DNA of 42,808 bases, from the NCBI RefSeq assembly GCF_003287935.1, contig NZ_CP030287.1, positions 8,140,532 through 8,183,339 on the forward strand. Direction: 5' to 3'. A program made the position numbers and the translations under genes. Shown in pieces: positions 14,466-36,922 of this stretch. Position 1 is the stretch's first letter. Each line of letters begins with the position of its first letter. The DNA is from Streptomyces sp. ICC1 (lineage in GTDB: Bacteria; Actinomycetota; Actinomycetes; Streptomycetales; Streptomycetaceae). A model generated the notes under the pieces. The model saw only the letters and a list, made by a program, of their open reading frames with translations, was not told the DNA's origin and searched no databases.

Positions 14466-14472
14466 TCCCGCG

Positions 14473-15375
14473 ATGGCCCTCGTCCAGGCGGACTCCGTCC
14501 GCTTCCACGTCCAACAGCTCCCGGCCGGCACGGACGCCGGCCCCGACCGTCCCGTGGTGGTGTTCCTGCACGGACTGGTCGTCGACAACCTGTCCTCCTT
14601 CTACTGCCCCCTGGCCGTCCCGGCGGCCCGGGCCGGACACGAGGTCGTCCTCTACGACCTGCGCGGCCACGGCCGCAGCGAACGGCCGGCCACCGGCTAC
14701 GACAGCGGCACCGCCGTGGGGGACCTGTTCGCACTGCTCGGCGAGCTCGGCCTCGGGCGGCGCCCCGTGCACCTGGTCGGCAACAGCCACGGCGGCACCC
14801 TCGCCCTGCACGCCGCCCTCGCCCGGCCCGACCGCGTCACCGGGCTCACCCTGCTCGAACCCCCGCTCAGCGGAACCTGGGTGGAGAACATGGTGGACAC
14901 CCTGTCGGCGGCCGCCCTCAGCCTCGAGGACAGCCCGGTCCCCGCCGAACTGCTCACCCTGCGGCTGCGCAAGGCCGCGAACCTCACCGCGATCGCCGAC
15001 GACCTGCTCAACCGCACCACGCTCATCGACGACATCGCGGCGAGCCGCACCTTCACCCCGGCCGACTACGCCGCACTGCGCTGCCCGGTCCTCATCGTCT
15101 GCGGCGAGCACTCCGAACTCGTCCCGGGCGCGCGGGAACTGGCCCGCCACGCCCCGCGCGTCACCGCGATCGAGATCCTGCCGGGCCTGGGCCACGACGT
15201 GCTGAAGGAGAGCAGCGGGGCGCTGAGAGCGGCCGTGCTCGCCCATCTCGACGCGGTGGCCGCGACGGCCCTGACCGCCCCGACGGCTCCGGTCACCGCG
15301 ACGGCTCCGGCCGCTCCGGTCGCTCCGACCGCTCCGGCCGAGGAGCTCCGGCGGACGGGGGTGCTGGTCCCGTGA
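14473..15375 (+). CDS. Alpha/beta hydrolase, possible product-release or editing thioesterase
   Basis: Alpha/beta hydrolase fold of 300 residues. VVFLHGLVVDN is the oxyanion region, VGNSHGGTLAL the nucleophile elbow with Ser near 106. CGEHSELVPGA holds the acid position, and GLGHDVLKE the catalytic His. The C-terminal 35 residues are an Ala/Pro/Thr repeat (TAPTAPVTATAPAAPVAPTA), probably a flexible tail. It starts 8 bases after the carrier gene and overlaps the next gene by a GTGA. Position suggests it releases or hydrolyses an acyl chain from the carrier; an ester-hydrolase role is equally possible. Confidence 0.83.
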   Translation: MALVQADSVRFHVQQLPAGTDAGPDRPVVVFLHGLVVDNLSSFYCPLAVPAARAGHEVVLYDLRGHGRSERPATGYDSGTAVGDLFALLGELGLGRRPVHLVGNSHGGTLALHAALARPDRVTGLTLLEPPLSGTWVENMVDTLSAAALSLEDSPVPAELLTLRLRKAANLTAIADDLLNRTTLIDDIAASRTFTPADYAALRCPVLIVCGEHSELVPGARELARHAPRVTAIEILPGLGHDVLKESSGALRAAVLAHLDAVAATALTAPTAPVTATAPAAPVAPTAPAEELRRTGVLVP

Positions 15376-16565: not shown

Positions 16566-18556
16566 AGCGTCCCGGGCTCCCCGTGCTTTCCCCGCTCCCT
16601 TCTCTTCCCCCGTTTCCGCTGCTCCCTCCGCTCCGGGGGTACCTCGCCCTGCGCCTTCCCGCCCGCCTTCCCCGAGTCCGGTGGACCTCCGCGGTCCTGC
16701 TGGTCGCCCTCGGCGCGGGCACCGTGCGCGCCGCCCGCCGGCTGCGGGCGATCCCGGTGCTGCCCATGACCCCTCCCATGGCCGCGCCCGCCGCCGCCGG
16801 GGTGCCGCGCGCCGCGGGCTGGCGGCTGCTCACCGCCCGCGGGGTCGAACCCGACGCGGCCACCTTCCTCGCCGCCTGCGCGCACGCCGACCGGGAGGGG
16901 CTGCACGTCCTGGACCTGCTGCCCGCGGACCTGGCCACCGAACGGACCATGGGCCTGCTGCGGCTGGTCGATCCGGCCGGCTACCGCCAGGACCGGCTCG
17001 GCGAGGGGCGCGGAGCGGGCTTCGCGGTGCTCGTCTCCGAGGAGGTGCTCGCGCGGGCCGGCGTGGATCCGGCCGAGCCGCGGCCCGCCCCGGCGGAACT
17101 CCTGGCGCTGACCCGCCGTTTGAAGGAGTACGCCACCGACGCCACCGGACTGGCCATCGCACCGGCCCTGAGCTGCGGACCTCCGCCGGACGCGAGCGGA
17201 GCGGCCCGCGCCGGCGAGCTCCGGGCCCAAGGGCTGCCACCGGGGGCGCTCGCCGCCGCGCAGCTCGCCGGGCTGGCCCTGCTGGCGGGCGTGGCCGTGC
17301 GCCAGGGCCGGTGGGGCGCCGCCGCGGCGGGGCTGTACTGGATCCAGCCCTGCCTGGCCCTCGGCGGGCCCGGCACACCGCTGCGCCCGGGCGATCTGGC
17401 CCTGGCCACAGCCGCCCGGCCGGTGCGCTCCCTCGCCGCCGCCCTGCGCACGGCCGCCGCCACGGCCCGTACCCGGCGGGCCGGCGGCGCCACCCCCGAG
17501 AGCGAGCGCGAGACGGCGCGGGCCGCCGTCCGGGCCGCCGACTACCGGACCGACCTGGCAGCGGGGACCGACCGGTTCTTCGAACCGCGCCGCCAGGACT
17601 GCCCCTGGTGCGGCTCCCGGCAGCTGTCCGTCCGCGTCCGGGTGCCCGATCTGCTCCAGGCCAAGCCCGGCCTGTTCACCCTGGACGGCTGCGGAGACTG
17701 CGGGCACGTCTTCCAGAACCCCCGGCTGACCCTGGAGGGGCTGGAGTTCTACTACCGCGACTTCTACGACGGCCGCGGCGGCGAGGGGGCGGCCACGGTC
17801 TTCGGGCGGCTCGGCGCCGCCTACCGGGGCCGGGCCGAGATGCTCCGCCCCCACGGAGCCCCCGCGTCCTGGCTCGACGTCGGCACCGGGCACGGCCACT
17901 TCTGCAACGCGGCACGCGCCGTCTGGCCGGACACCCGCTTCGACGGGCTGGACATGGGCGACGCGGTGCGCGACGCGGAGCGGCGCGGCTGGGTGGAGAC
18001 GGGCCACCAGGGCCAGTTCCCGGAGTTCGCGGTGAAACTGGCGGGCCAGTACGAGGTGGTCAGCATGTACCACTACCTGGAGCACACCCGGGACCCGCTC
18101 GCGGAACTGGACACGGCGGCCGCCGTCCTCGCCCCCGGCGGCTACCTGACCATCGAGATCCCCGACCCCGAATCGCGCATGGCCCGGCTGCTCGGCCCGG
18201 CCTGGCTGCCCTGGTTCCAGCCGCAGCACCAGCACCTCATCCCGGCCGCCAACCTGCGCGAGGCGCTGGCCGAGCGCGGGTTCACCGTGCTCGCCGAGGA
18301 GCACGGCCCGGCCCACCAGGGCAACGACTTCTTCGGCGCGGTGGCCCTGACCGCGACCAGGCTGGCCCCGGACCCCGACCGGCCCTGGGCCTCCCCGGCC
18401 ACCCCCGGCCGGCGCGCCCTCACCCACGCCGTACAGGTGGCCGCGCTGCCGTGCTTCGCCGCCGCGGCGGTGCTCGACGCACTGCGCACGGCCGTGGCCC
18501 GGCGCACGGACGGCGGGAACGCCTACCGGATGCTGGCCCGGAAGGACGAGCGGTGA
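16562..18556 (+). CDS. Membrane-anchored zinc-ribbon SAM-dependent methyltransferase fusion
   Basis: A 664-residue protein in three parts. Residues 1-345 are of unknown function. They have a hydrophobic segment near 41-58 and another near 235-272, with a folded-looking middle (FLAACAHADREGLHVLDLLP). Residues 347-390 form a zinc ribbon: CPWCGS and CGDCGHVFQNPRLTLEGLEFYY. Residues 430-600 are a class I methyltransferase with LDVGTGHGHF, YHYLEHTRDP and APGGYLTIEIPDP. Ribbon plus methyltransferase is known from sugar C-methyltransferases and related tailoring enzymes; the membrane N-terminal half is what is unusual. The last codons lie inside a 30-bp hairpin. Confidence 0.82.
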   Translation: MKRPGLPVLSPLPSLPPFPLLPPLRGYLALRLPARLPRVRWTSAVLLVALGAGTVRAARRLRAIPVLPMTPPMAAPAAAGVPRAAGWRLLTARGVEPDAATFLAACAHADREGLHVLDLLPADLATERTMGLLRLVDPAGYRQDRLGEGRGAGFAVLVSEEVLARAGVDPAEPRPAPAELLALTRRLKEYATDATGLAIAPALSCGPPPDASGAARAGELRAQGLPPGALAAAQLAGLALLAGVAVRQGRWGAAAAGLYWIQPCLALGGPGTPLRPGDLALATAARPVRSLAAALRTAAATARTRRAGGATPESERETARAAVRAADYRTDLAAGTDRFFEPRRQDCPWCGSRQLSVRVRVPDLLQAKPGLFTLDGCGDCGHVFQNPRLTLEGLEFYYRDFYDGRGGEGAATVFGRLGAAYRGRAEMLRPHGAPASWLDVGTGHGHFCNAARAVWPDTRFDGLDMGDAVRDAERRGWVETGHQGQFPEFAVKLAGQYEVVSMYHYLEHTRDPLAELDTAAAVLAPGGYLTIEIPDPESRMARLLGPAWLPWFQPQHQHLIPAANLREALAERGFTVLAEEHGPAHQGNDFFGAVALTATRLAPDPDRPWASPATPGRRALTHAVQVAALPCFAAAAVLDALRTAVARRTDGGNAYRMLARKDER

Positions 18557-18603
18557 CGGGCGCCGCGGCCCCCGCCGCGGCGCCCGTCACCGCTCGTCCT
18601 TCC
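18540..18603 (+). terminator. Perfect 30-bp inverted repeat spanning the methyltransferase stop codon
   Basis: The left arm 18540-18569 and right arm 18574-18603 are exactly complementary, with the 4-base loop CCCC. The left arm includes the last five codons and the stop of the methyltransferase gene. It would terminate transcription of the operon. The length and perfection are unusual, and a fold-back chimera formed during amplification is an alternative origin. The following 18604-18740 holds no supported gene; I see only C-rich sequence. Confidence 0.65.
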
Positions 18604-18740
18604 CACAACCCGCCATCACCCTTCACCCCCGTCGCGCGCGCAGCGCCGAGCGCCGCCCCCGCGTGCGCCCACACCGGGCAGGGCATGTTGGGCTAACGGC
18701 GCGGTGCGCGGCGGGCGCCGGCGGGGGCGGCGTACCGCTG

Positions 18741-19244
18741 TCCGTGCTCGCGAGCGTCGCCACCGAGCCCGATCCGGCGGAGCGCCTCGCGCGGGTACGG
18801 GCCTGGACGGTGCTGCCGGACCGGGCGGTGGTGCGGTTCGCGGAGCCGGGGGCCCGGGAGCTGGCCGAGGCACTGCTGGAGCGCGGGGTCGCGGTGGACG
18901 CGGAGGTCCCGGTGGGCGGGCCGCCCGAGCCGCTGGAGCGGTTCCTGGCCTGGCCGGTACGGGACCCGGCGCGGGTCCGGCTCGCGGTCGAACTGCCCGG
19001 GGCCGACCGGGCCCTGGTGGCGCTGGCGCTGCGCGGGCTGCCCCCCGTACCGGTGCTGCTGTTCGGGCGGGAGGCCGCGGCCTGGCCGGTGCTGCGCCTG
19101 GCCGCGCGCTGCGGCACGGGCGCCCGGATCGGCGTGGGCGACGTACTGCGGGTGCCGGACGGGCGGCCGGCCCGCTCGAACGCCCAACTGGTCGCGGCGG
19201 CCGCCCGGTTCCGGGATGAGGCTCCTACAGCCGGGATCCGGTGA
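18741..19244 (+). pseudogene. 5'-truncated BKACE (DUF849, 3-keto-5-aminohexanoate cleavage-like) gene
   Basis: The frame matches only the C-terminal two thirds of BKACE proteins. Visible are TEPDPAERLARVRAWTVLPD, FAEPGARELAEALLERGVAV, LLFGREAAAWPVLRLAAR and the terminal GARIGVGDVLRVPDGRPARS. Full members are near 250 residues and begin with about 75 residues carrying the metal-binding His and Glu of the TIM barrel. These are absent, replaced by an unrelated Gly/Ala stretch, with no ribosome site. It is therefore a remnant or the product of a false join near 18720-18740. The 3' end overlaps soxR by 20 bases on the opposite strand. Confidence 0.7.
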
Positions 19245-19668
19245 GGCGTTCGCCGAAGACGTCGTCCGGGTTGGAGAGCGCGCAGTTCTCCAGCGAGAGG
19301 CAGCCGCAGCCGATGCAGTCGGCCAAATGGTCGCGCAGGCGGCCCAGTCGGGCGATGCGGTGGTCCAGCTCGGCCCGCCAGTTCTCGGAGAGCCGGGCCC
19401 AGTCGGCGCGGTTGGGGGTGCGGCCTTCGGGGAGCTGGGTGAGCGCGTCGCGAATGCTGGCGAGCGGGATCCCGACGCGCTGGGCGGCGCGCACGAAGGC
19501 CACCCTGCGCAGCGCGTCGCGGGTGTAGCGGCGCTGGTTGCCTGAGGTGCGGCGGCTGGTGATCAGGCCTTTGGTCTCGTAGAAGTGCAGCGCGGAGACC
19601 GCGGCACCGCTGCGGGCGGACAGCTGGCCGACGGTGAGCTCGTGGACTTTCTCGGGAATCTGCGGCAC
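19225..19668 (-). CDS. soxR: Redox-sensitive MerR-type activator SoxR
   Basis: Senses redox-cycling compounds through a [2Fe-2S] cluster and activates transcription. The HTH reads [21 protein letters not shown], followed by a dimer helix. The cluster motif [12 protein letters not shown] is complete with four cysteines, and the C-terminal [16 protein letters not shown] is the actinobacterial signature. GTG 19668 (start of [12 protein letters not shown]) matches known Streptomyces SoxR; 147 residues. In Streptomyces it controls quinone- and pigment-related genes. No SoxR box (paired CAAG/CTTG with TTAA core) is evident beside it. Confidence 0.95.
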
Positions 19669-19745
19669 ACCGCCGAGGGTAGTCGGCCGCACCGACATTC
19701 GTTGATCCGTGTGTCGTTGACAGATACACGCGGCCCCCAGCATGC

Positions 19746-19759
19746 TGAGCAAGCGCTTA
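19746..19759. promoter_or_regulatory. TetR operator candidate upstream of the MaoC gene
   Basis: TGAGCAAGCGCTTA, with TT following, agrees with the actinobacterial KstR2-type pattern AnCAAGnnCTTGnT at nine of ten fixed positions. The identical 14-mer recurs at 21002-21015, above the TetR gene transcribed toward this locus. It lies 38 bases before the MaoC start. Confidence 0.65.
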
Positions 19760-19796
19760 TTCGTCAGATTCGTCAGGGAGAGGCAGGGGTACGAGG

Positions 19797-20258
19797 ATGG
19801 CCGAGCCGAGGATCTTCACGTCCGCCGAGGAGTTGACCGCCGGGATCGGCGAGCCGCTCGGCCCCAGCGACTGGCTGGAGGTGGACCAGAAGCGGATCGA
19901 CCTCTTCGCCGACGCCACGGGCGACCACCAGTGGATCCACGTGGACCCGGAGCGGGCGGCGGGCGGGCCCTTCGGGTCCACGATCGCGCACGGGTACCTC
20001 ACGCTGTCCCTGCTGCCGAGCCTGGTGCCGCAGATCATGCGGGTCGAGGGCATGCGGATGGGCATCAACTACGGGGTGAACAAGGTGCGCTTCCCGGCGC
20101 CGGTGCCGGTCGGCTCGCGGCTGCGCGCGACCGCGCTGATCACGGAGGCCGTGGAGGCGGGCGGCGGCGTACAGGTGTCGGCGACCGTCACGGTCGAGCG
20201 CGAGGGCGGCGAGAAGCCGGTGTGCGTCGCCGAGTCGGTGTCCCGCTACTACTTCTGA
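19797..20258 (+). CDS. MaoC-family (R)-specific enoyl-CoA hydratase
   Basis: Single-hotdog hydratase of 153 residues acting on enoyl-CoA thioesters. The signature hydratase-2 motif is present: [18 protein letters not shown] with the catalytic Asp and His, then [21 protein letters not shown] 19797 has GGGAGAGG and an adjacent GAGG upstream. It is convergent with a TetR gene and overlaps its 3' end by 10 bases. Both share an upstream 14-mer, which suggests control by that TetR and a role in fatty acid, sterol-side-chain or similar CoA-ester metabolism. Confidence 0.9.
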
Positions 20259-20935
20259 GCCTCGGCGGCGGGGCCGGGGCCGGCATCGGGGCCGGGGCCG
20301 GCAGCAGGTCCGGGACCGGCCCCCACCATCCGGAGCACGAGGCCCGCGTAGAGCGCGCCGACCTCGTCCGGCGTGCGGCGGCCGTCCGTGCTGAACCAGC
20401 GGGCGACGTCGATGCAGAGCGACAGGACCGCGAGGGTGGTGCCGGGCACGTCGGGGACGTGGAACTCCCCCGCCTCGACGCCCTCGGCGAGGATCCGGCG
20501 GATGGCGGCGTCGCTCTGCCGGCGCAGCGCCACGATGTCGGAGCGGTGCTCCGGAGCGAGGGCATCGAGCTCGTACTGGACCACGCGCGCGGTGGTGTGG
20601 TGCGCCGCGTGCCACCGCACGAAGGACCGTACGGCCTCGTCGAGGCGCTCGGCGGCGGTGCCGGGGCCCGAGGCGGCGCTGTCCAGGATCTCGAGGGCCT
20701 TGTCGTGGCCGATCCGGCTGATCCGGTGGAGCAGCTCTTCCTTGGTCTTGTAGTGGATGTAGAGCGCGGCCGGGCTCATCCCCGCCCGGCCCGCGATGTC
20801 ACGCGTGGTGGTGGCGTGGTACCCGCGCTCCGCGAAGGCCTCGACGGCCGCGACGAGCAGCCGCCGCGCCGCGTCGGGCGTGACCTCCTGCCACGGCCGG
20901 TAGCCGCCGGTCGTCGTCTCCTGCGCGCTCTCCAT
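20249..20935 (-). CDS. TetR family regulator (KstR2/FadR-like)
   Basis: A 228-residue repressor. HTH: ARRLLVAAVEAFAERGYHAT and RAGMSPAALYIHYKTKEELL. The ligand domain has HHTTARVVQYELDALAPEHR and VLSLCIDVARWFSTDGRRTP, a pattern common in acyl-CoA-sensing TetRs. The tail is a Gly/Pro/Ala repeat (GPGPDAGPGP). ATG 20935 is chosen; the frame opens further upstream at 21388 without support. The 14-mer TGAGCAAGCGCTTA lies 66 bases upstream and again before maoC, so it probably represses both. The KstR2 comparison is inference from the operator. Confidence 0.85.
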   Translation of the reverse strand: MESAQETTTGGYRPWQEVTPDAARRLLVAAVEAFAERGYHATTTRDIAGRAGMSPAALYIHYKTKEELLHRISRIGHDKALEILDSAASGPGTAAERLDEAVRSFVRWHAAHHTTARVVQYELDALAPEHRSDIVALRRQSDAAIRRILAEGVEAGEFHVPDVPGTTLAVLSLCIDVARWFSTDGRRTPDEVGALYAGLVLRMVGAGPGPAAGPGPDAGPGPAAEAQK

Positions 20936-21001
20936 CGCCCGTCTCACCCTCTTCGCGCCGCCCTGTCGTGCCCTGGTGGGAAGGAACAGCCTACCGGAGG
21001 G

Positions 21002-21015
21002 TGAGCAAGCGCTTA
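21002..21015. promoter_or_regulatory. Second copy of the TetR operator 14-mer
   Basis: TGAGCAAGCGCTTA is identical to 19746-19759 and lies upstream of the TetR gene starting at 20935. It also sits 13 bases past the stop of the YiaA-like gene. The flanks differ between the copies, so the repeated core is likely the selected part. Confidence 0.65.
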
Positions 21016-21027
21016 GATGCGTTGCGT

Positions 21028-21333
21028 TCAGCTGCCCTGACCGTGCGGCTTCGGCGCGAAGGGGTCGTAGTCCACCATCATCTTCTCCATGCGGGCCTGG
21101 TCGACGCGGCTGACGATCTGCGTGACCTCCTGCCGGTCGCGGACCACCTTGGCGAGGGTGAAGGCCGAGGTGGTCAGGTAGAGGACCGCGATGCCGAGGA
21201 AGGCGCGCACCCAGCCGTCGGCGTCCATGTTGTAGATCCCCAGGGCCACGGCGGCCATGGCGGTGCCGAAGGAGGCGACGGCCTGGCCGTAGTACGCCCC
21301 CGTGTTCTGCTGCTTGACCGGTGTCTCGTTCAT
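21028..21333 (-). CDS. YiaA/YiaB family inner membrane protein
   Basis: A 101-residue protein with two membrane helices: YYGQAVASFGTAMAAVALGI and WVRAFLGIAVLYLTTSAFTLA, joined by the family motif YNMDADGW. A charged tail follows (VVRDRQEVTQIVSRVDQARM). Function of the family is unknown. ATG 21333 is preferred to the longer frame at 21384 because homologues begin near MNETPVKQQNTGAYYG. Confidence 0.82.
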   Translation of the reverse strand: MNETPVKQQNTGAYYGQAVASFGTAMAAVALGIYNMDADGWVRAFLGIAVLYLTTSAFTLAKVVRDRQEVTQIVSRVDQARMEKMMVDYDPFAPKPHGQGS

Positions 21334-21444
21334 GGGTCCAGCTTCGGGCCCGACGGGCCGCGCCACATCCGCGCTCGTACTCACGCACGTACTCAGGCGC
21401 GCGCGGGGCCGGGCGGGTGCGCGGCCCGGCTCCGGGCGCGCGCG

Positions 21445-22596
21445 TCAGAACGCGGAAACTCCCGTACGGGCGCGGCCGATCAGCAGCTTCTGGATCTGGC
21501 TGGTGCCCTCGTACAGGGTCATCACGCGGGCGTCGCGCAGCAGCTTGCCGGCCGGGTACTCATCGATGTACCCGTAACCGCCGTGCACCTGCAGGGCGTT
21601 GCTCGCGGCGCGGACGGCGGCCTCGGAGGCGAAGAGCTTGGCCGTGGAGGACTCGGTGGCGAACGGCCGCCCGCGGTCGATGAGATCGGCGACCCGCCAG
21701 GTCAGCAGCCGGGCCGCGTCCACGTCCACGGAGATGTCGGCGATCAGCTCCTGGACCAGCTGGTGCCGGGCGATGGGCTTGCCGAACTGCTCGCGCTGGA
21801 CGGCGTAGGAGACGGCCGCGTCGAGGGCCGCCTGCGCGATGCCGACGCAGCCCGCGGCAACCGACATCCGGCCCTTCGCGAGGGCCGACATGGCGACCGA
21901 GAAGCCCTTGCCCTCGGGGCCGAGCATCGCGGAGGCGGGCACGCGCACACCGTCCAGGGAGAGTTCGGCGGTGGCCTGGCCGCGCAGGCCGAGCTTGCCG
22001 TGGATCTCGCGGCGGGTCAGGCCCGGGGAGTCGGCGGGGACGAGGAAGGCGGAGATCGCGCGGTGGCCGGGCTCGTCACCGGTGCGGGCGAAGAGCAGCA
22101 CCACATCGGCCCAGGTGCCGTTGGTGATGAACATCTTGCTGCCGCTGATCACGTACGAGTCCCCCTCGCGCGTGGCGCGGGTGGTGAGGGCGGCGGCGTC
22201 GGAGCCGGTGCCGGGCTCGGTGAGCCCGAAGCAGCCCAGAGCGTCGCCGGAGCACAGCCGGGGCAGCCAGTCGCGCTTCTGCTCCTCGCTCCCCCAGGCG
22301 GCGATGGTCTTGGCGACCAGGCCGAGGGAGACGGAGACGATGCCGCGCACGGCGGAGTCGCCGCGGCCGAGCTCCTCGGTGACCAGGGCGTAGGAGAGGT
22401 GGTCGCCGCCGGAGCCGCCGTACTGCTCGGGGACGGTCAGGCCGAGGAAGCCGACGGCTCCGAGCTTCTTCACGACGGCCCGGTCCACGCTCTCGGCGCG
22501 GTCCCACCCGGCGGCGTACGGGGCGATCTCGCGCTCGGTGAACGCGCGGGCGAGTTCGCGTACGGCGGACTGCTCCTGGCTGAGCTCCAGATTCAC
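21445..22596 (-). CDS. Acyl-CoA dehydrogenase
   Basis: FAD enzyme introducing an alpha-beta double bond in acyl-CoA, passing electrons to ETF. The N-terminal helical domain is ELSQEQSAVRELARAFTERE. Then CFGLTEPGTGSDAAALTTRA and SGSKMFITNG of the flavin site, and GKLGLRGQATAELSLDGVRV. The C-terminal block HGGYGYIDEYPAGKLLRDAR precedes TLYEGTSQIQKLLIGR, where the Glu of YEGT is the usual catalytic base. GTG 22596 has GGAGGTG upstream; 383 residues, full length. It diverges from a TetR gene with a palindromic operator in the 88-base gap. Confidence 0.95.
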   Translation of the reverse strand: MNLELSQEQSAVRELARAFTEREIAPYAAGWDRAESVDRAVVKKLGAVGFLGLTVPEQYGGSGGDHLSYALVTEELGRGDSAVRGIVSVSLGLVAKTIAAWGSEEQKRDWLPRLCSGDALGCFGLTEPGTGSDAAALTTRATREGDSYVISGSKMFITNGTWADVVLLFARTGDEPGHRAISAFLVPADSPGLTRREIHGKLGLRGQATAELSLDGVRVPASAMLGPEGKGFSVAMSALAKGRMSVAAGCVGIAQAALDAAVSYAVQREQFGKPIARHQLVQELIADISVDVDAARLLTWRVADLIDRGRPFATESSTAKLFASEAAVRAASNALQVHGGYGYIDEYPAGKLLRDARVMTLYEGTSQIQKLLIGRARTGVSAF

Positions 22597-22638
22597 CGGG
22601 CACCTCCGGGCGGACGGGTCGGATGGGTCGGATGGGTT

Positions 22639-22655
22639 AATTAGCACTGCTAGTT
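22639..22655. promoter_or_regulatory. Palindromic operator between acyl-CoA dehydrogenase and TetR
   Basis: TAGCACTGCTA (22642-22652) is perfectly symmetric around its central C, with two more paired A/T positions outside. It sits in an AT-rich patch in an otherwise GC-rich divergent promoter, where the neighbouring TetR would be expected to bind and control both genes. Confidence 0.65.
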
Positions 22656-22684
22656 TAGTTGGGGCAGGCCCTACTATGTGGCGC

Positions 22685-23410
22685 ATGGCCAGACCGCGCA
22701 AGCCCCTCCTCAGCAGAGACCGCATCATCGAGGCGGCCGGCGCGCTGGTGGACGCGGAGGGGCTGGAGGCCGTCTCGACGCGGCGGCTGGCCGCCGCGCT
22801 GGGCGTCAGCGGGCCTTCGCTGTACAACCACTTCCGCACGAAGGACGAGATCCTGGACGCCGTCGCGGACGCGGTGAGCGCGCGGGTCGACCTGTCGATG
22901 TTCGAGGCGGTGGGCCTGGCCGGCGGATCCGGCGCGGAGCGGGAGGGCGGTGCCGGCGGCGGCCCTGGCGGAGGCGGCCCCGAGTGGCGGGGCGCCCTGC
23001 TCGCCTGGGCGCACTCGTACCGGGCCGCCCTGTCCGACCATCCGAACATCGTGCCGGTGCTGGCGCGCGGGCCGGGCCGCAGGCCGGCCGGACTGCGGGT
23101 GGCGGACGCCGTCTACGGCGCGATGACCGCCGCCGGCTGGCCGCCGGCGCAGGCGACCCGGATCGGCGCGCTGATGCGGTACTTCATCCTCGGTTCGGCG
23201 GTCGCCTCGTTCGCCCGGGGTTTCGTGGACGACGAAACGGCATACGACCCGTCGGACTACCCGCACCTGGGCCAGGCCCACCGGCTGGCGCACCGGCAGC
23301 GCGAGGTGGACGAAGGGGCCTTCGAGACCGGCCTGACGGCGCTGCTCGACGGACTGGCCATCCAGTACGAGGCGTTGGGGAAGTCGCCGGAACCCGACGA
23401 GCCGGCGTGA
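22685..23410 (+). CDS. TetR family regulator divergent from the acyl-CoA dehydrogenase
   Basis: A 241-residue repressor. The HTH contains LSRDRIIEAAGALVDAEGLE and AAALGVSGPSLYNHFRTKDE. A Gly-rich insert near residues 80-100 (GGAGGGPGGGG) separates DNA-binding and ligand domains. The C-terminal domain (MRYFILGSAVASFARGFVDD) is of the tetracycline-repressor-like C-terminal type. ATG 22685 is set by the reading frame and gap. The divergent layout with a central palindrome predicts local auto- and cross-repression, with an acyl-CoA as a plausible inducer. Confidence 0.87.
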   Translation: MARPRKPLLSRDRIIEAAGALVDAEGLEAVSTRRLAAALGVSGPSLYNHFRTKDEILDAVADAVSARVDLSMFEAVGLAGGSGAEREGGAGGGPGGGGPEWRGALLAWAHSYRAALSDHPNIVPVLARGPGRRPAGLRVADAVYGAMTAAGWPPAQATRIGALMRYFILGSAVASFARGFVDDETAYDPSDYPHLGQAHRLAHRQREVDEGAFETGLTALLDGLAIQYEALGKSPEPDEPA

Positions 23411-23485
23411 CGGCCGAAGAGCCCGGGCCCGGGGCCAGGCCCGGGGCCAGGCCTTGGACCTGACCCCTGACCCTGACGCAGGCCT

Positions 23486-24565
23486 CTAGAAGACGACGAG
23501 CGAGCGGCCGCCCTTGCCCGCCAGCATCGCGTCGAAGGCGGCCGGGATGCCGTCGAGCGTGATGCGGTCGGTGACCAGGGCGCCGAGGTCGAGGCGGCCC
23601 GCGCGGACGTGGGCGGCGATCACCGGGAGGTCGCGGGCGGGGTCGCTGTTGCCGTAGACGCAGCCCGTGAGGGTGCGGGCGAAGTGGAAGATCTCCAGCG
23701 CGTTGAAGGTGACCTGCTGGTCCTTGCCCCCGATGCCGACGACCGTCGTACGGCCGCCTCGGCGGGTGGACTCCCAGGCGCCCCGGATGGACTCGGCGCG
23801 GCCGGCGCACTCGATGGCGACGTCCGCACCGTGGCCGCCGGTCAGCGCGCGGATGTCCTTGGCCGTGGTCTCGGAGGCGAGCACGAACTCCGTGGCCCCC
23901 GCCGCCCGGGCCAGCTCCTCCTTGGCCGGGGAGACGTCCACGGCCACGATCGGGCCTGCCATGGCGATGCGCGCCGACTGGAGGGCCGCGAGGCCCACGC
24001 CGCCGACTCCGAAGACGGCCACCGACTCGCCCGGCCGGACCTGGGCGCTGTGGTGGACGGCTCCGTAGCCGGTGAGGACCGCGCAGCCGAGCAGCGCGGC
24101 CTCGGTGAGCGGGATCCCGGCGGGGGCGGGCAGCACGCAGTTGGCCGCGACGACCGTTTCCTCGGCGAAGGCGGCCACGTTCAGCCCGGGGTGCAGCTCG
24201 GTTCCCCGGGCGTCGTGGGCGTAGACGTTGCCGACCCCGGCGAGCGCCTTGGCGCAGAGCCAGACCTCGCCGATCGAGCAGTGGTGGCACTGCCCGCAGG
24301 ACGGGGCCCAGTTGAGCACCACCCCGTCGCCGGGCGCGACGTGGATGACCCCTTCCCCGACGGCGAGGACCGTGCCCGCGCCCTCGTGGCCGAGGACGGC
24401 GGGCACGGGGACCCGCATGGTGCCGTTGGTGAGGGAGAGGTCGGAGTGGCAGACCCCGGCTGCGGTGAGCCGTACCCGGACCTGCCCGGGGCCGGGCTCG
24501 GGCAGCACGATGTCCCGTATCTCCAGCGGGGCTCCGACGGCGGGCAGGATGGCGGCGCGGACCAT
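23486..24565 (-). CDS. Zinc-dependent alcohol dehydrogenase
   Basis: NAD-dependent medium-chain dehydrogenase of 359 residues. Catalytic zinc ligands are visible in AAGVCHSDLS and GHEGAGTVL. The structural zinc loop CGQCHHCSIGEVWLC keeps all four cysteines. The Rossmann motif VAVFGVGGVGLAALQ is near residue 190. It resembles actinobacterial class III-like alcohol/mycothiol-type dehydrogenases. ATG 24565 sits in the sequence CCATGG, exactly where an unrelated aldehyde dehydrogenase fragment begins on the other strand, so the natural upstream region is probably missing. It converges with the TetR gene across a G/C repeat gap (23411-23485). Confidence 0.92.
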   Translation of the reverse strand: MVRAAILPAVGAPLEIRDIVLPEPGPGQVRVRLTAAGVCHSDLSLTNGTMRVPVPAVLGHEGAGTVLAVGEGVIHVAPGDGVVLNWAPSCGQCHHCSIGEVWLCAKALAGVGNVYAHDARGTELHPGLNVAAFAEETVVAANCVLPAPAGIPLTEAALLGCAVLTGYGAVHHSAQVRPGESVAVFGVGGVGLAALQSARIAMAGPIVAVDVSPAKEELARAAGATEFVLASETTAKDIRALTGGHGADVAIECAGRAESIRGAWESTRRGGRTTVVGIGGKDQQVTFNALEIFHFARTLTGCVYGNSDPARDLPVIAAHVRAGRLDLGALVTDRITLDGIPAAFDAMLAGKGGRSLVVF

Positions 24566-24698
24566 GGTCGTCGGCGCCAAGCAGCGCGACCGCGTGCGCG
24601 GCTTCATCACCAAGGGCGTGGAGGAGGGCGCGCGCCTCGTCGCGGGCGGGCCCGAGGCGCCGCACGCGCAGGGGTACTTCATCGCCCCGACCATCTAG
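24564..24698 (+). pseudogene. Internal fragment of an aldehyde dehydrogenase
   Basis: Forty-four codons match the middle-to-late part of NAD-aldehyde dehydrogenases: AKQRDRVRGFITKGVEEGAR, then LVAGGPEAPHAQGYFIAPT. In full enzymes this lies after the catalytic Cys and runs on into TVFxDV. Here both ends are missing. The left end coincides with the alcohol dehydrogenase start codon and the right end runs into adapter-like sequence. It is best seen as a stray piece brought in by a chimeric join. Confidence 0.8.
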
Positions 24699-24708
24699 AC
24701 GGGGTGGA

Positions 24709-24741
24709 TCGTCGGCAGCGTCAGATGTGTATAGGCGACAG
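24709..24741 (+). other. Embedded Illumina Nextera Read-1 adapter sequence
   Basis: These 33 bases match the Nextera Read-1 transposase adapter at 31 positions; the mosaic-end part reads agatgtgtataggcgacag here. Eight bases (ggggtgga) between 24701 and 24708 fit an i5 index by length. The adapter stands between an aldehyde dehydrogenase scrap and the last codon of an L,D-transpeptidase. It is not biological sequence. Confidence 0.93.
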
Positions 24742-25308
24742 CTTCAGCGCCGACCCCTGCTGCCAGTCCGCCCAGGACAGGTTCCACTCGCCGAAGCCGT
24801 TCCCGGCGGCCACCGTCTCCTTGCCGTCCGTCACCTCGAAGACGTCGCCGACCTGCACCAGGTCGTAGAACCACGCCGCGTCCGCCGCCTCTTCAGGCCG
24901 ATGCAGCCGTGGCTCTTGTTCGCCGAGCCGATGTGGCCCTCCGCCCACTCGGCCTGGTGCGCGTACGTGCCCGAGACCGTCAGAATGGTCCCCTCCTTGC
25001 CCATGAGGGGCATCTTCCCGCTCCAGGTCGGGGTGCTCGCCGGATCGCCCGCCGTGATCGGGACCGACTTCACCACCGCGCCGTCACGCTCCAGCGTCAG
25101 CGGGTGCCGGGCGATGTCCACCTTGGCCAACCGGCTTCCCGTCAGGTCCGGTCACGGTCACCGCCGTCAGGGTGCCGTGCTCCACCCGCGCCCCGACCGC
25201 CCCGTCCGGCTTGACGTCCCGCGCTCCGTCGGCCGGCAGGAGGCTCACCGCGACCGACAGCGCGAGCAGGGCGAGCAGCGGGACCGCAGGGGTGTGTGCC
25301 TTGCGCAT
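24742..25308 (-). pseudogene. Broken L,D-transpeptidase (YkuD domain) gene
   Basis: L,D-transpeptidases make 3-3 crosslinks in peptidoglycan outside the cell. A signal peptide (VPLLALLALSVAVSLLPADG) and the start of an Ig-like domain (GARVEHGTLTAVTVTGPDGK) are followed directly by the end of the catalytic domain. That part holds VDIARHPLTLERDGAVV and the active-site SHGCIGL. About 170 residues are missing at 25126-25137, with a frame change. A second gap is likely near 24982, and one base is lacking near 24890, after which the frame resumes as AAWFYDLVQVGDVFEV. The gene ends in adapter before its stop. Not functional as written. Confidence 0.8.
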
Positions 25309-25534
25309 GGGTGAGTGAACCTCCAGGGAGAGCCGGGGTCTTCAGCCCGGGATGCCCGGGAGGAGGCCGCCCCGATCGCCCGTGGTTTCAGCCGGGACGG
25401 AATTCGGGACGATCAAGGAGCAAAGTCATCCAACATGAAATTTATGGGCCATTCGGCTGGAACCCCTCATCGGCGCCTGACGTCCTGACCAGTGCGAGCT
25501 CACAAGGCGGACGTCGAATGGGGAGTTGAGACAC

Positions 25535-26365
25535 ATGGGGTTCATGGCGCGCACGCACATGCAGGGCATGCGGACACGGCTGGCCGTCGCCGGGGCGGCC
25601 GCGGCGGTGGCCGCGACGGTGTGGGGAGTGACGACGATCGTCGATCCGTCCCCCGACACGGGCCACGAGAACGCCTCCCGGCAGAGCGACGACCCCGCGC
25701 AGGGCGGCGGCGCCGACCCCCAGGCGCCCGGGAACCCGGGCCAGGTCCCGGACGGCATAGCCCACGCCTCGGAGGCCGGCGGGAACGCGGTCAACATCAC
25801 CATCGACGACGGGCCCGACCCCAAGTGGACGCCGAAGGTGCTGGAGGTCCTCGCGAAGTACGACGTGAAGGCGACCTTCTGCATGATCGGCCCGCAGGCC
25901 AAGGCCCACCCGGACCTGGTCAAGAAGGTCGTCGCGGCCGGCCACCGGCTCTGCGACCACACCATGGACCACGACACGACGATGGACAAGAAGCCCCTCG
26001 ACTACCAGCGCCGGCAGATCCTCGACGCGAAGAAGCTGATCGAGGACGCGGCGGGAGGCGGGGCCAAGGTGGAGTACTACCGGGCCCCCGGCGGTGCGTT
26101 CACGCCCGAGAGCAGGGCCCTGGCCGCTGCCGACGGCATGCGTCCGCTGGGCTGGAACATCGACAGCAAGGACTTCGAGAAGGCCGGGGCCGCGAAGATC
26201 GCCAACACGGTCAAGAGCGAGATCAAGAACGGTCCGACCGTCCTGTTCCACGACGGCGGCGGCAACCGCACCCAGACCGTCGAGGCCCTCGACCAAGTCC
26301 TGGCCTGGCTGAAGGAGCAGGGCCGGCCCACCGGCTTCCCGGTGGTCACCGGCCCCAGCGCCTGA
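25535..26365 (+). CDS. Secreted polysaccharide deacetylase (NodB homology, CE4)
   Basis: Metal-dependent deacetylase of N-acetylated glycans such as chitooligosaccharide or peptidoglycan. An N-terminal signal segment (TRLAVAGAAAAVAATVWGVT) precedes an acidic, Pro/Gly linker. All five CE4 motifs are visible: TIDDGPDP, HTMDHDT with both metal His, YYRAPGG, GWNIDSKDF and VLFHDGGGNRTQTVEAL. ATG 25535 has GGGGAG upstream; 276 residues. It appears intact although both neighbours are broken. The upstream gap 25309-25534 has no gene and only unremarkable promoter-like sequence. Confidence 0.92.
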   Translation: MGFMARTHMQGMRTRLAVAGAAAAVAATVWGVTTIVDPSPDTGHENASRQSDDPAQGGGADPQAPGNPGQVPDGIAHASEAGGNAVNITIDDGPDPKWTPKVLEVLAKYDVKATFCMIGPQAKAHPDLVKKVVAAGHRLCDHTMDHDTTMDKKPLDYQRRQILDAKKLIEDAAGGGAKVEYYRAPGGAFTPESRALAAADGMRPLGWNIDSKDFEKAGAAKIANTVKSEIKNGPTVLFHDGGGNRTQTVEALDQVLAWLKEQGRPTGFPVVTGPSA

Positions 26366-26375
26366 GCGTCGCCCT

Positions 26376-26460
26376 CGGCCCGGACTGCCTTCGGCCCGGA
26401 CCGCTCTCAGCCCGGACCGCCCTACCCTCGGGCCGCCCTGCCCCCGGACCGCCCTACCCC
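26376..26460. repeat. Imperfect GGCCCGGACCGC-like repeat
   Basis: Five or six imperfect copies of a 13-16 base unit (cggcccggaccgc, cagcccggaccgc, cccccggaccgcc) fill the gap between the deacetylase stop and the end of the convergent serine hydrolase frame. It could form hairpins that stop transcription from both sides. Confidence 0.55.
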
Positions 26461-27222
26461 CGGGCCGCCTTGAGGACCGCCGCCGTCAGCGGGCCGTTCT
26501 CCGCGGCGGCCCCGCCCGGGAAGGCGAAGCGGCGCCGCGTGTAGCCGTACGCGGTCCCCGTCACCGGGTCGGCGAAGCCCTGGGCGCCCGCCGCGCCCGA
26601 GTGCCCGAAGGCCTCCGGGCCCCGGCGGATCGCGGTGCAGGTCGAAGGCCACCGCCAGCAGCTCCGGAGCCGTTGCCGCGAGCTCCGCGCCCTCGGCCTC
26701 CTGCTCCGGCGTCGGAACCATGTCCAGGACCGGCCGCCAGCGCCCTTCCAGCTGACACGGCGGCAGTCCCAGGTACAGGTCCAGCCCGAACGGCGCGCGG
26801 ATCCGCTCCTCGGAGACCTCCTGGATCGAGCGCCCCGTCGCCCGGCGCGCGACCTCGCCGGTCAGCGCGCCGATCACGTAGGCGTGGTAGCCGTACGCCG
26901 TCCCGGGCTCCCAGTGCGGCCGCTGCCCGGCCGGCCGCGCCGCGAGCAGCGCGTCGTCCGCGAGCTCCTCGTAGTCGAAGCCCTCGGCGGTGTTGACCAG
27001 TCCGGACTGGTGCGCGACCAACTGCCGCACCGTCAGCCGCTCCTTGCCGCCCCCGGTGAACTCCGGCCGGTACGCCGACGCCTCCGGAGGGATCCGCTCG
27101 CCGGCCACGAAGGCCACGAAGGCCACGAAGGCCACGAAGGCCTCGAAGGCCACGAAGGCCTCGAGCTCCTCGCGCACCGGCTCCCAGCCCGCCGCCACCG
27201 TGCCGTCCACGTCCACCGCCAT
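26454..27222 (-). pseudogene. Rearranged serine hydrolase (class C beta-lactamase-like) gene
   Basis: These proteins are esterases or peptidases with an SxxK nucleophile. The start MAVDVDGTVAAGWEPVREEL has a GGGGGGA ribosome site. It breaks into a 9-bp tandem repeat and resumes at YRPEFTGGGKERLTVRQLVA. The segment that should carry SxxK, about 60-70 residues, is absent. The middle (GTAYGYHAYVIGALTGEVAR) is normal. After AVAFDLHR roughly 90 residues are missing and the frame shifts near 26625, then GPEAFGHSGAAGAQGFADPV completes the C-terminus. Not functional as written. Confidence 0.8.
27103..27165. repeat. Seven tandem 9-bp units GGCC(A/T)CGA(A/G)
   Basis: Units of ggccacgaa or ggcctcgaa run without interruption for 63 bases. 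On the - strand they encode AFVAFVAFVAF-type sequence at the point where the serine hydrolase loses its catalytic segment. The run could be real slippage or an assembly artefact. Confidence 0.9.
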
Positions 27223-27396
27223 CGTCGTCCCCCCGGTCCGGCCGGTGCTGCCGAACGGCTTCCGCGCACGCCAACACGCGGCCCGCGGGCAGGGGTTCCG
27301 GACGCGCGCGGGGTCGCGCCCGCGCACCGGTTCTCGTACGGGTGAAAGCGCGCCCGGCGTCGTTCCGGCCCGCCGCGGGACCCCGTTGGTCCGGGC

Positions 27397-28026
27397 ATGA
27401 AGCGCACCCGCACCGCCGCTCTCGCCCTCGCCGCCGCCGCGGCGGCCCTCGCCCCCGTCCTCTGCCAGGGAGCCGCCACCGCCGCGGACGGCACGGCGTT
27501 CCTCCAGGACCCGAGCGGAGGGGAGAAGGCGATGAAGTCGATGTGGACCAAGGACGACATGCACAAGGTGGAGGCGCAGTTCCGCTTCCAGCCCGGCATC
27601 CGGTACAAGACGGTGGACCGGCCCGGACCCAAGGGCGCGGAGGACTACCACCGCCAGGTCCCCGACCCGAAGACCCTGGCCTGGGAGCCGGGGTACGAGT
27701 TCGCGTGGTCGGTCGCGGACTCGCAGGGGGTGAAGAAGGTGCTGACCACCAAGGACGGCAAGCACCCGATCGTCGTGCACGCGGTGCTGCGGAGCGCGAA
27801 CCGCGCCAAGGCCGCCGAGGTGCACCAGGAGCTGGTCAACCGGCCGGCGACGGGCCGTACGAAGGTTCCGGGCGGCAAGCGCATCGCGTGTGACACCGGG
27901 AAGTACACGGTGGAGTGGTCGGTCACGCGCACCGGCTACGGCACCCTCACGGGGTCCCTGGCCTGGGACTCCAGCTGCCAGGAGTACCGCACGGCGTTCA
28001 GCCCGCAGAACCAGGGCGCCAGCTGA
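27397..28026 (+). CDS. Secreted protein of unknown function
   Basis: A 209-residue protein with a clear signal peptide (TAALALAAAAAALAPVLCQG, likely cut at AATAAD). The mature part is hydrophilic and contains FLQDPSGGEKAMKSMWTKDD and two cysteines (IACDTG, DSSCQEY) that may form a disulfide. I do not recognise the family. ATG 27397 lacks an obvious ribosome site. It diverges from the broken serine hydrolase across 174 bases with no clear operator. Confidence 0.7.
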   Translation: MKRTRTAALALAAAAAALAPVLCQGAATAADGTAFLQDPSGGEKAMKSMWTKDDMHKVEAQFRFQPGIRYKTVDRPGPKGAEDYHRQVPDPKTLAWEPGYEFAWSVADSQGVKKVLTTKDGKHPIVVHAVLRSANRAKAAEVHQELVNRPATGRTKVPGGKRIACDTGKYTVEWSVTRTGYGTLTGSLAWDSSCQEYRTAFSPQNQGAS

Positions 28027-28057
28027 TGCGGTGAGGGGAAGGGGTGGGCCTGCCGCC

Positions 28058-28080
28058 CCGCGCACCTTGTGGGTGCGCGG
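28058..28080 (+). terminator. Hairpin after the secreted-protein gene
   Basis: A 9-bp stem CCGCGCACC / GGTGCGCGG with a 5-base loop lies 32 bases after the stop. Further C/G pairing is possible outside with a one-base bulge. Confidence 0.65.
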
Positions 28081-28190
28081 CGGGGCGACGGGGCCGCGGC
28101 CTCGGATCGAAGCCGTACCAGCCATGATGCCGCGTGGGGTGGGGTGCGGCAGGGGGCGGAAGTCCCGTGTCGGCAGGGCCGTTCGGCGGA

Positions 28191-28263
28191 AGTTCCGGGC
28201 GCACGCGCCTTGAGTTCCGGGCCGCACGCACCTGGAGTTCCGGGCGCTGCGGGAGTTCCGGGC
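28191..28263. repeat. Four copies of AGTTCCGGGC
   Basis: Identical 10-mers begin at 28191, 28213, 28236 and 28254, each followed by G/C-rich variable bases, just beyond the stop of the - strand binding-protein gene. Spacing of 22, 23 and 18 is irregular, unlike a CRISPR array. The whole gap 28081-28272 holds no supported gene. Confidence 0.7.
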
Positions 28264-28272
28264 GCTGTGGGG

Positions 28273-29562
28273 TCAGCGCTTCTTGGCTTCGGTCGCCTTC
28301 GCGGCGATCTCCTCCAGCACGGCCTTCGGGTCGCCGCCGGGGTCCACGGCCCGCCCGATGTTGCGCTTGATGGTGTCGCTGACCGTCACCCAGGACGGGT
28401 CGTTGACCGGGTAGAGCTGGGCGCTGCGCAGGGCCGTCAGGAACTCGGCGTCGCTCTTGTCCATGCCGCCGCTGCCGGCCAGCGTGCGGGAGGCGGAGAC
28501 GGTGGACGGCAGCAGGTGGTAGCGGCCGGCGAAGTCCGCGAGGTTCTTGTCCTGGTAGACGAAGTCCAGGAACTTGCCGATCTCGGCGCGGTGGTCGTGC
28601 TGCTTGAACGCCACCATCCAGTCGGCCACGCCGACGGCCGGCGGGCTCTCGCCGGTGCCGATCGTGTCGTTGACGGGCATCGCGACGGTCCGGACCTCGA
28701 TGCCCTTGGCGCGCGCCTCGTGGGTGAGCGAGGGGTAGCCGTTGAGCATGCCGACCTCGCCCCGCGTGAAGGCGGCGAAGGCGTCGGCACGGTTGAGCTG
28801 GGACGGCGGGGTGGGGCCGAGCAGGCCGGGGCCGACCAGGTTCTCCTTGATCCACTTGAAGGTCTGGATGTTCTGGTCGGAGGCCAGGCTGTAGTTGCCG
28901 CTGCTGTCGGCGTAGCCGCCGCCGTTGCTGAGCTCCCAGATCATCGCCTCGGCGTGCGCCTCCTCGGGGCCCAGGGGCATGGCGTACGGGTACTTCACGC
29001 CCTTGTCCTTGAGTGCCTTGGCGGCGGCCTTGAGGTCCGCCCAGGTCTTGGGGGTCTCCTTGACGCCGGCCTGCTTGAACAGGGTCTCGTTGATGAAGAG
29101 CAGGCGGCTGCTCGCGACGAAGGGCAGGCCGTAGAGGGTGTTGCGGACGGAGCCGGCCTCGGCGAGGGGCTGCAGGAAGTTCGCCTCGGCGGTGACCGAG
29201 AGGAGTTCGTCCGCGGAATAGAGCTTGCCCTGCGCCGCGAAGTCCGAGTAAGAACCCATGAGGGCCATGTCCGGCGCGTTCCCGGCCTTCACCATGCGGG
29301 AGACTTCACGGTCGATGTCGGCCCACGGAAGCAGCTGGACCTGAACCTTGATGCCCGGGTTCGCGACGGTGAAATCCGCCGTCACCTTGTCCCAGAACTC
29401 CTTGGAACTGTTGGCCGAACCGTCGCCGTATTCGGCGGCGACGAGGCGGAGCGTGCCGCCGTCACCTGCGTCGCTTCCGTCCGAGCCGCCGCATCCGGCC
29501 AGCGTTGTCAGCAGACCGAGCACGACCGTGGTGGCGGCCGTGCCGAAGATTCTTCGTCGCAC
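28273..29562 (-). CDS. Extracellular solute-binding lipoprotein of a sugar ABC transporter
   Basis: Family 1 substrate-binding protein tethered outside the cell. The signal peptide ends in lipobox LAGC (about residues 21-24). The mature protein has the usual two-lobe signatures: VANPGIKVQVQLLPWADIDR, PDMALMGSYSDFAAQGKLY, YGLPFVASSRLLFINETLFK and FTRGEVGMLNGYPSL. It has 429 residues from GTG 29562 with AGGGGAA upstream. No permease or ATPase gene lies nearby in the window, so it is an orphan here. The ligand, probably a saccharide, cannot be deduced. Confidence 0.93.
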   Translation of the reverse strand: MRRRIFGTAATTVVLGLLTTLAGCGGSDGSDAGDGGTLRLVAAEYGDGSANSSKEFWDKVTADFTVANPGIKVQVQLLPWADIDREVSRMVKAGNAPDMALMGSYSDFAAQGKLYSADELLSVTAEANFLQPLAEAGSVRNTLYGLPFVASSRLLFINETLFKQAGVKETPKTWADLKAAAKALKDKGVKYPYAMPLGPEEAHAEAMIWELSNGGGYADSSGNYSLASDQNIQTFKWIKENLVGPGLLGPTPPSQLNRADAFAAFTRGEVGMLNGYPSLTHEARAKGIEVRTVAMPVNDTIGTGESPPAVGVADWMVAFKQHDHRAEIGKFLDFVYQDKNLADFAGRYHLLPSTVSASRTLAGSGGMDKSDAEFLTALRSAQLYPVNDPSWVTVSDTIKRNIGRAVDPGGDPKAVLEEIAAKATEAKKR

Positions 29563-29690
29563 GGGTGTATTCCCCTGATTTTCTTTTGCGTCGCGTTATT
29601 ACTTATGGGTTGCTCCGGGCTGTGCTGTCCCTCCATGGCCCGTTGGCCGGAATTCTCTCCTGTGGGAGGCCGTCTTGTTCCATTGGGTCG

Positions 29691-29716
29691 GCACTTGTGG
29701 TCAATGCTCCAAGTGC
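29691..29716. promoter_or_regulatory. Inverted repeat in the promoter region of the binding-protein gene
   Basis: GCACTTG and CAAGTGC form 7-bp arms 12 bases apart, about 130 bases upstream of the lipoprotein start. The whole gap 29563-29837 is distinctly AT-richer than its surroundings, as regulated promoters in Streptomyces often are. No gene is supported in it. The regulator is unknown. Confidence 0.35.
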
Positions 29717-29837
29717 GGCATTTCAGAATGGTGTTTTCCGATATGTGATCAACAATTCGGACGCGCGTAGACATGGCGAAACGCCCGTTTCCGGCCACGG
29801 AACGGGTTGGGGGAGGGGGACCGGCCGCGCGGCGGCG

Positions 29838-30455
29838 TCAGTCGGAGAAGTCGCCCGCGTAGGGGTCGGGCTCGCCCGTTTCGGGGTTGCGGCCCTCCTG
29901 CCAGCGCCGCTGGGCCTTGCGCCAGTGCACGAAGCTGAGGTGGCCGCCGTCCCAGAAGGTGATGCTGACCGGGCTCATGTCGAACTCGTCGGAGCACAGG
30001 CGGTACAGGAACTCGCCCATGCCGTACGGGTACACCGCGAAGGAGTCGGCGGTGTGGCGCCCGACCACCAGGACGGGCCAGCGGTCCGGGTCGGCATCGG
30101 TCGTCAGCCAGCACAGGATGTCGGAGCCGCCCGTGACGCCCCAGGCGACGATCGACTCGGGGTCCACGTCGAAGGCGGCCCGGCCGCCCTCGGACTCCCA
30201 GACCTGGCGGGCGTTGGCGGTCTCCTCCGCCATCTGCGCCGGGTCCCACTGGAGCCCCGGCTTGGGCAGCGGCAGCAGCACGCTCGCCTCGCCGTTGATC
30301 GAGCCCGCGCCGAAGCGGCCCATGAAGGCGATGAAGTCGGCGGGGAAACGGCTGCCCCAGACGGCCTCGGCCGCCTGCCAGTCGATGTCCTCGTCCGTGC
30401 CGTGAGTCGCCGGCATGATCTGCTCCAGCGCCTTGATGTGCGCGTTCTCCGTCAT
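29838..30455 (-). CDS. SMI1/KNR4 (SUKH) family protein
   Basis: A 205-residue cytoplasmic protein. The SUKH fold signature is visible as WQAAEAVWGSRFPADFIAFM near residue 27, followed by FGAGSINGEASVLLP and a later hydrophobic core (DILCWLTTDADPDRWPVLVV). Many family members are immunity proteins that neutralise a neighbouring toxin; others are housekeeping. No toxin gene is recognisable beside it. ATG 30455 has GGGGAG directly upstream. Function here is undetermined. Confidence 0.82.
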   Translation of the reverse strand: MTENAHIKALEQIMPATHGTDEDIDWQAAEAVWGSRFPADFIAFMGRFGAGSINGEASVLLPLPKPGLQWDPAQMAEETANARQVWESEGGRAAFDVDPESIVAWGVTGGSDILCWLTTDADPDRWPVLVVGRHTADSFAVYPYGMGEFLYRLCSDEFDMSPVSITFWDGGHLSFVHWRKAQRRWQEGRNPETGEPDPYAGDFSD

Positions 30456-30514
30456 GCCGCTCCCCTGCCACCCCAGCTCAACCGCCCCAACCTACCGCCG
30501 GTCAGGGGCAGCGC

Positions 30515-31027
30515 CTAGCGTCGGTCGAGACGGAGCCGCAGCACGGACCCCACGCGCAGCCCCCAGGCGGCCATGGCGCCGGCCTCGGCCTCCAGGACGT
30601 GGCGGGCGCGCAGCCGGGGGAGTCCGAGGCGTCCGGGGGGCATGGTGGTCAGCGCGACGACCCTGAGCCGGCGGTCCAGGTAGGCCACGTCGATGGCGAA
30701 GCGCATCCGGAAGGTGTGCACGCTCGCGGCCGGGGTGAGGAGCATCGCCCCCTCGATCCCGTCCAAAGAGTAGGTCGGCGGCAGGGGCGGAGGTGTAGAA
30801 GAGGCAGCACCGGGAGTGCCGGGAGAGGCAGGAGTGCCGGGTGAGGCGGGAGTGCCCGGCCCCGCGGGCCCCGCGGGCCCCGCGGGCCCCGCGGGCCCCG
30901 CGGGTGTGCCGGGCGCGGCCGGAGCGGCGAACGCGGCGGGCGGACCCACGGCCACCGAGCCGCCCAGCAGCGTCCCGATGACGGCGACGGCCGCGGCCGT
31001 CGCCCGCTTGCTGCCCCTGAGCCGCAC
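30515..31027 (-). CDS. Secreted collagen-like N-terminus fused to a partial DUF192 domain
   Basis: GTG 31027 has AGGAGG upstream. A signal peptide (AAAVAVIGTLLGGSVAVGPP) is followed by a Gly-Pro-Ala repeat (GPAGPAGPAGPAGPG and GTPASPGTPASP). Then comes DUF192 from IEGAMLLTPAASVHTFRMRF to HVLEAEAGAMAAWGL. Normal DUF192 proteins carry about 30 more residues, including an ARGLLGR-like segment, before IEGA. Here that part is replaced by SSTPPPLPPTYS, encoded by adapter-like bases 30774-30807. The chain may be a false fusion of two genes. 170 residues. Confidence 0.55.
   Translation of the reverse strand: MRLRGSKRATAAAVAVIGTLLGGSVAVGPPAAFAAPAAPGTPAGPAGPAGPAGPAGPGTPASPGTPASPGTPGAASSTPPPLPPTYSLDGIEGAMLLTPAASVHTFRMRFAIDVAYLDRRLRVVALTTMPPGRLGLPRLRARHVLEAEAGAMAAWGLRVGSVLRLRLDRR
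30774..30807 (-). other. Degenerate Nextera-like adapter sequence
   Basis: Read from the right, the first 29 bases agree with the Nextera Read-1 adapter at 23 positions without gaps; then a 3-base insertion, then GTCGGC-type sequence resumes. One - strand frame reads CLFYTSAPAAD, close to CLLYTSDAAD, the translation commonly left by this adapter. Chance similarity is possible because the match is imperfect. Confidence 0.5.
30813..30904. repeat. 18-bp and 9-bp tandem repeats encoding the Gly-Pro tract
   Basis: Two and a half copies of an 18-bp unit (ggagtgccgggagaggca-like) at 30813-30860 run into five exact copies of ccccgcggg at 30860-30904. On the - strand they encode the GTPASP and GPA repeats of the DUF192 fusion. 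Confidence 0.9.
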
Positions 31028-36879: not shown

Positions 36880-36922
36880 CCCATGAGTACGCACTGCCCG
36901 CACCCCCCACACTGGAGGCGCC

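Follow-up and report, generated by a model that had tools for sequence, protein, structure and literature searches.

The 42,808-nucleotide stretch of Streptomyces sp. ICC1 analysed here (contig NZ_CP030287.1, positions 8,140,532 to 8,183,339; called the window below) contains at positions 24709-24741 a residual Illumina Nextera adapter, which marks a spot where a short-read assembly falsely joins unrelated pieces, and which represents an artefact and not biology. We put the probability of this reading at roughly 98.5%. The genome record that holds the window (G000) comprises 9,034,319 bases in one contig, and it is highly likely that this whole one-contig record consists of short-read contigs strung together in an order that is not biological, with error-bearing adapter scars at many of its joins. 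The scar and its two flanks are composed as follows.

23486 to 24565, reverse strand: intact zinc alcohol dehydrogenase gene, with which the genuine sequence of the left piece ends.
24566 to 24696, forward strand: stray piece from inside an aldehyde dehydrogenase gene, in the opposite orientation to the one that this gene normally has next to the alcohol dehydrogenase.
24693 to 24700, forward strand: probably the 3' terminus of P5 (ATCTAGAC, agreeing with the primer's end ATCTACAC at 7 of 8 bases), possibly sharing bases with the end of the stray piece.
24701 to 24708, forward strand: remnant of an i5 index, GGGGTGGA, which likely derives from AGAGTAGA by three A-to-G differences.
24709 to 24741, forward strand: Nextera Read-1 adapter, consisting of a 14-base S5 part and the 19-base Tn5 mosaic end, which together agree at 31 of 33 bases.
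24742 to 25308, reverse strand: broken L,D-transpeptidase (YkuD) gene with its 3' end cut by the adapter; the genuine sequence of the next piece begins with it.

The 33 bases differ from the Read-1 adapter TCGTCGGCAGCGTCAGATGTGTATAAGAGACAG at only two positions, and they are the only match to it within 3 mismatches in the window, while 100 dinucleotide shuffles gave no match. The identity of 31 in 33 bases claimed by an earlier note on this DNA is thus confirmed, and the index-length stretch of eight bases that it saw ahead of the adapter is indeed present. As is characteristic of Nextera constructs, an S5 or N7 primer part is attached to the mosaic end. When the P5 tail, the i5 index in the form AGAGTAGA and the Read-1 adapter are taken together, 43 of 49 bases fit across 24693-24741. 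In this orientation, the genuine insert sequence begins at 24742.

The index letters point to one library. For this, 64 S5-type sites (the window site counted among them) and 29 N7-type sites with up to 7 mismatches were pooled from the fetched stretches of the record, many of which had been picked around adapter places, and a single library's 8-base sample index was found between the primer parts, as expected for Nextera. The i7 position reads CATGCCTA, perfectly so at 8 of the 29 N7-type sites. At the i5 position A and G are mixed, and the commonest base per position across the 64 S5-type sites spells GGGGTGGA, as at 24701-24708. Its true form is probably AGAGTAGA, which we take to be the index named S504; it is perfect at one of the 64 sites and agrees at 7 of 8 letters at a second adapter at 30767-30807. 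The first candidate for the i5 index, AAGGAGTA, was dropped after the sites had been pooled. At the S5-type sites, 155 of 261 differences are toward G and 205 of 261 equal a neighbouring adapter base, and the corresponding counts at the N7-type sites are 51 and 74 of 100, all of them raw counts. The pattern is one that out-of-phase, low-quality read ends would give. The record thus holds letters identical to those of the Illumina Nextera dual-index adapters (P5-i5-S5, P7-i7-N7 and the Tn5 mosaic end), but unlike the oligos its copies carry errors, 2 in 33 bases at the main site and 8 in 41 at the second. The letters of S5, P5, N7 and P7 are as in PMC7757419, where the i7 CATGCCTA appears as oligo N706 and the S-primers of the table do not include AGAGTAGA; the mosaic end and the P5-side barcode AGAGTAGA are both printed in PMC8185305.

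On the left side of the scar, similarity to close relatives at the end of the alcohol dehydrogenase extends to 24573. The following piece, 24566-24696, has a copy with 98% identity over its 131 bases at G000:C1:7813124-7813254, a place that lies within an intact open reading frame of 476 amino acids at 7.813 Mb, and its peptide matches the Pfam family Aldedh, so that the earlier description of a stray aldehyde dehydrogenase fragment proved correct. The intact aldehyde dehydrogenase of G000 is 352 kb away from the alcohol dehydrogenase of the window. For the relatives, 80 alcohol dehydrogenase loci were fetched with flanks of up to 6 kb, and in 76 of the 77 with 1.5 kb of room an aldehyde dehydrogenase stands directly upstream on the same strand, L200 being the exception. 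The piece in the window is a misplaced, inverted, read-sized fragment, and the scar therefore comprises two joins, one at about 24565/24566 and one at about 24697-24741. At the partner break (G000:C1:7812671-7812802, which is L137:12671-12802), another stray piece, about 132 bases long and a copy of L137:14336-14469 with 98.5% identity and in direct orientation, sits at the end of the intact aldehyde dehydrogenase gene. The open reading frame L010:2-955, which adjoins this break, is presumably transposase-like, and a repeat there could have caused the assembly to break. Un-split read pairs, with mate 1 followed by raw mate 2, were considered as the source of the inverted piece and rejected, as they fit the window and fail at the direct piece of the partner break.

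On the right side, one piece of the transpeptidase matches Pfam YkuD with 26.0 bits (cut-off 23.4), and its last frame passes into the adapter letters after ...WQQGSALK. The gene is thus cut at the adapter as had been claimed, and it is broken elsewhere too: close to the end of the contig, its reading shifts frame twice within 24742-25308, which is what sequence of low quality would give. The transpeptidase piece was found in none of the 80 alcohol dehydrogenase loci of the relatives within the fetched flanks. In seven of 30 relatives searched (G004, G005, G007, G009, G012, G014 and G018), a full-length alcohol dehydrogenase and the best transpeptidase match occur on one contig, and the two are at least 0.47 Mb apart, which still holds if all the transpeptidase matches listed for the contig are included. 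The two sides of the adapter are not natural neighbours, and the view that this join is not genomic is supported by the adapter identity, by the index and by the relatives that lack the join.

Two further joins, neither of which the earlier note had picked up, are seen or suspected to the right of the scar.

30767 to 30807, forward strand: second, more degraded adapter with index AGAGTAGG, S5 part and mosaic end, 33 of 41 bases.
36815 to 36906, no strand assigned: probable third join with no visible adapter, its two sides 4.2-5.1 Mb apart in all seven relatives.

All eight differences in the second adapter are to G, and it reaches a score of 24.2 in an adapter scan in which the reversed control over 420 kb gave no match reaching score 13. 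In six of the seven relatives, similarity to the sequence on its left breaks off no more than 11 bases from 30767; in G014 it breaks off earlier. At the probable third join, the left match ends at 36807-36814 in five of the seven, G009 and G012 having no match up to that point, and a regulator-like frame, which we assume to be LysR-like, breaks at about 36815-36906 as judged by eye. The earlier note advised treating left and right of the main adapter as separate loci; this holds in that the flanks lie apart in relatives, but the right part is itself not one clean locus.

The same adapter letters are spread over the whole record. With up to 3 mismatches, the 19-base mosaic end occurs at 162 places in G000 (88 forward, 74 reverse), compared with one for the backward control. 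No exact copy exists in the entire record, three copies have one mismatch, and 102 have at most two; the places listed are 100 of the 162 (3 with one mismatch, 90 with two and 7 with three). Longer adapters within 3 mismatches were found 51 times on the S5 side and 25 times on the N7 side, and never in the controls. The imperfect copies look like survivors of a trimming or masking that took out the near-exact ones, and it is because only imperfect copies remain that an exact mosaic-end search finds nothing. Counted per megabase up to 9 Mb, 93 listed mosaic-end places, out of the 102 with at most two mismatches, number 4, 2, 4, 3, 6, 3, 15, 21 and 29, with six more in the last 34 kb. A test on these 93 rejected a uniform spread (p ~2e-16), the density rising with the coordinate. 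In the adapter scan, matches with a score of at least 13 number 37 in the 420 kb around the window versus 16 in the 400 kb at 0.4-0.8 Mb, with none and four, respectively, in the reversed controls. Contigs joined roughly by decreasing length would give such a rise along the coordinate, and poor scaffolding or gap filling could have a similar effect.

A comparison within the genus indicates where such letters normally reside. Within 2 mismatches, the mosaic end was found in 50 of the 392 genomes searched, G000 included, and only G132 with 175 places exceeds the 102 of G000. In the other genomes, 67 of the 69 forward matches among those listed are confined to the first 114 bases of a contig. Among these matches, adapter contamination of public assemblies elsewhere in the genus is almost always located at contig starts, whereas in G000 it lies inside the single 9.03-Mb contig, beside runs of N that resemble masked adapters. 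As the motif normally sits at contig ends, such ends seem to have been internalised in G000: contig-end adapters are found inside one molecule and gene order is broken there, gene order having been examined at the two adapters of this window and at one further join.

All nine N-runs in the fetched stretches of the record adjoin a mosaic-end or primer remnant, and in four of them the run and the visible letters together have exactly the length of the missing oligo; for these reasons, we think that the N-runs look like masked adapters. The four exact runs, and the run and remnant at the right edge of the window, are given here.

L042: 27 N between CAGAAGACGGCA and TCGG, exact oligo length.
L028: 32 N ahead of the final five index bases, exact oligo length.
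L151: 47 N, equal to P7, index and N7, exact oligo length.
L017, left edge of the window, G000:C1:8140487-8140531: 45 N and two visible bases, together 47, an exact fit to a masked P7 oligo.
Right edge of the window, G000:C1:8183340-8183374: 35 N with an adapter remnant adjoining, a looser fit.
42789 to 42807 of the window, reverse strand: mosaic-end remnant, 17 of 19 bases, beside the 35-base N-run.

Six of the nine runs come from the 420 kb surrounding the window, a block that, the window itself aside, was selected without regard to adapters; the 400-kb block at 0.4-0.8 Mb contains no N-runs.

A plausible course of events would begin with short-insert reads that ran on into the adapter. Near-consensus adapter copies would have been trimmed or later masked, while copies with two or more errors would have escaped and become contig tails. 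The contigs would then have been concatenated into a single molecule of 9.03 Mb, by which the contig-end adapters would have become internal. At the scar in the window, the alcohol dehydrogenase contig would end at about 24565, where an inverted fragment about as long as a read, from the naturally adjoining gene, is attached, and after this stray piece the P5/index/adapter tail of the next contig would follow, with genuine sequence from 24742.

Several observations weigh against this account. The false join is read from the assembled sequence, and who joined the contigs, and how, we infer from the same source. Some joins carry no adapter (36815-36906 and L137:12671-12802), and the stray piece is direct at the partner break but inverted at the window scar, therefore no single join mechanism covers both. 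Five of the nine N-runs, the one at the right edge of the window included, match an oligo length only loosely. Finally, the transpeptidase matches in relatives are short (the best with 70-73% identity over 140-220 bases), and they may be paralogues.

Among the alternatives, a single local chimera, in which one bad read or product of the polymerase chain reaction joined two pieces of an otherwise sound chromosome, is very improbable. The stray piece does come from the normally next gene, and in L177 the region matching it is some 435-560 bases upstream of where the alcohol dehydrogenase starts, as a local accident could explain; such an accident does not account for the 162 mosaic-end-like places, for the second adapter and the further join in the same window, or for a partner aldehyde dehydrogenase gene 352 kb away. 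The earlier note was right about the false join; the scar is one of these 162 places and no lone chimera. A real insertion, with Tn5-derived DNA in the chromosome of the strain and genuine mosaic ends, deserves hardly any credence, as judged from the mosaic-end and adapter matches. The mosaic end is a Tn5 transposon end, but an insertion of this kind should leave exact copies, which are absent from the whole record, and it would explain neither the attached S5/N7 sequencing-primer parts and sample indices nor the transpeptidase frame that goes straight into the adapter. Chance resemblance in GC-rich DNA is practically negligible. Weak adapter-like scores do arise (at score 12, 60 matches over 420 kb compared with 10 in the reversed control) and matches below score 13 are mostly chance, among them three in the window at 3624, 21084 and 37389, but the main site scores 35.8, whereas nothing in that control reached 13 and the shuffles gave no match, and the index and P5 letters lengthen the match further.

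With the residual-adapter reading preferred, 24709-24741 is no biological feature, and its value is that of a data-quality warning on gene order in the record. Any neighbourhood, operon or cluster of genes that is called over 24566-24741, over 30767-30807 or over about 36815-36906 is very probably false, and false gene order is likely at many more places in G000. If the record is indeed made of concatenated contigs, the scars mark many joins and gene order across them is therefore meaningless. Adapter at contig ends does little harm until the contigs get joined. The record is rated 100% complete, and such a rating does not reveal the problem; if the concatenation is true, a degenerate adapter scan can detect such records where exact searches fail.

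The 6-kb middle piece between the two adapters, 24742-30767, is poorly conserved, parts of it matching scattered places in the seven relatives, and it may hold further joins. On the other side of the scar, four relatives show the window parts 59-5845, 7143-12464 and 19228-24565 in another order or spacing, and the differences across 5845-7143 and 12464-19228 could be either joins or real rearrangements.
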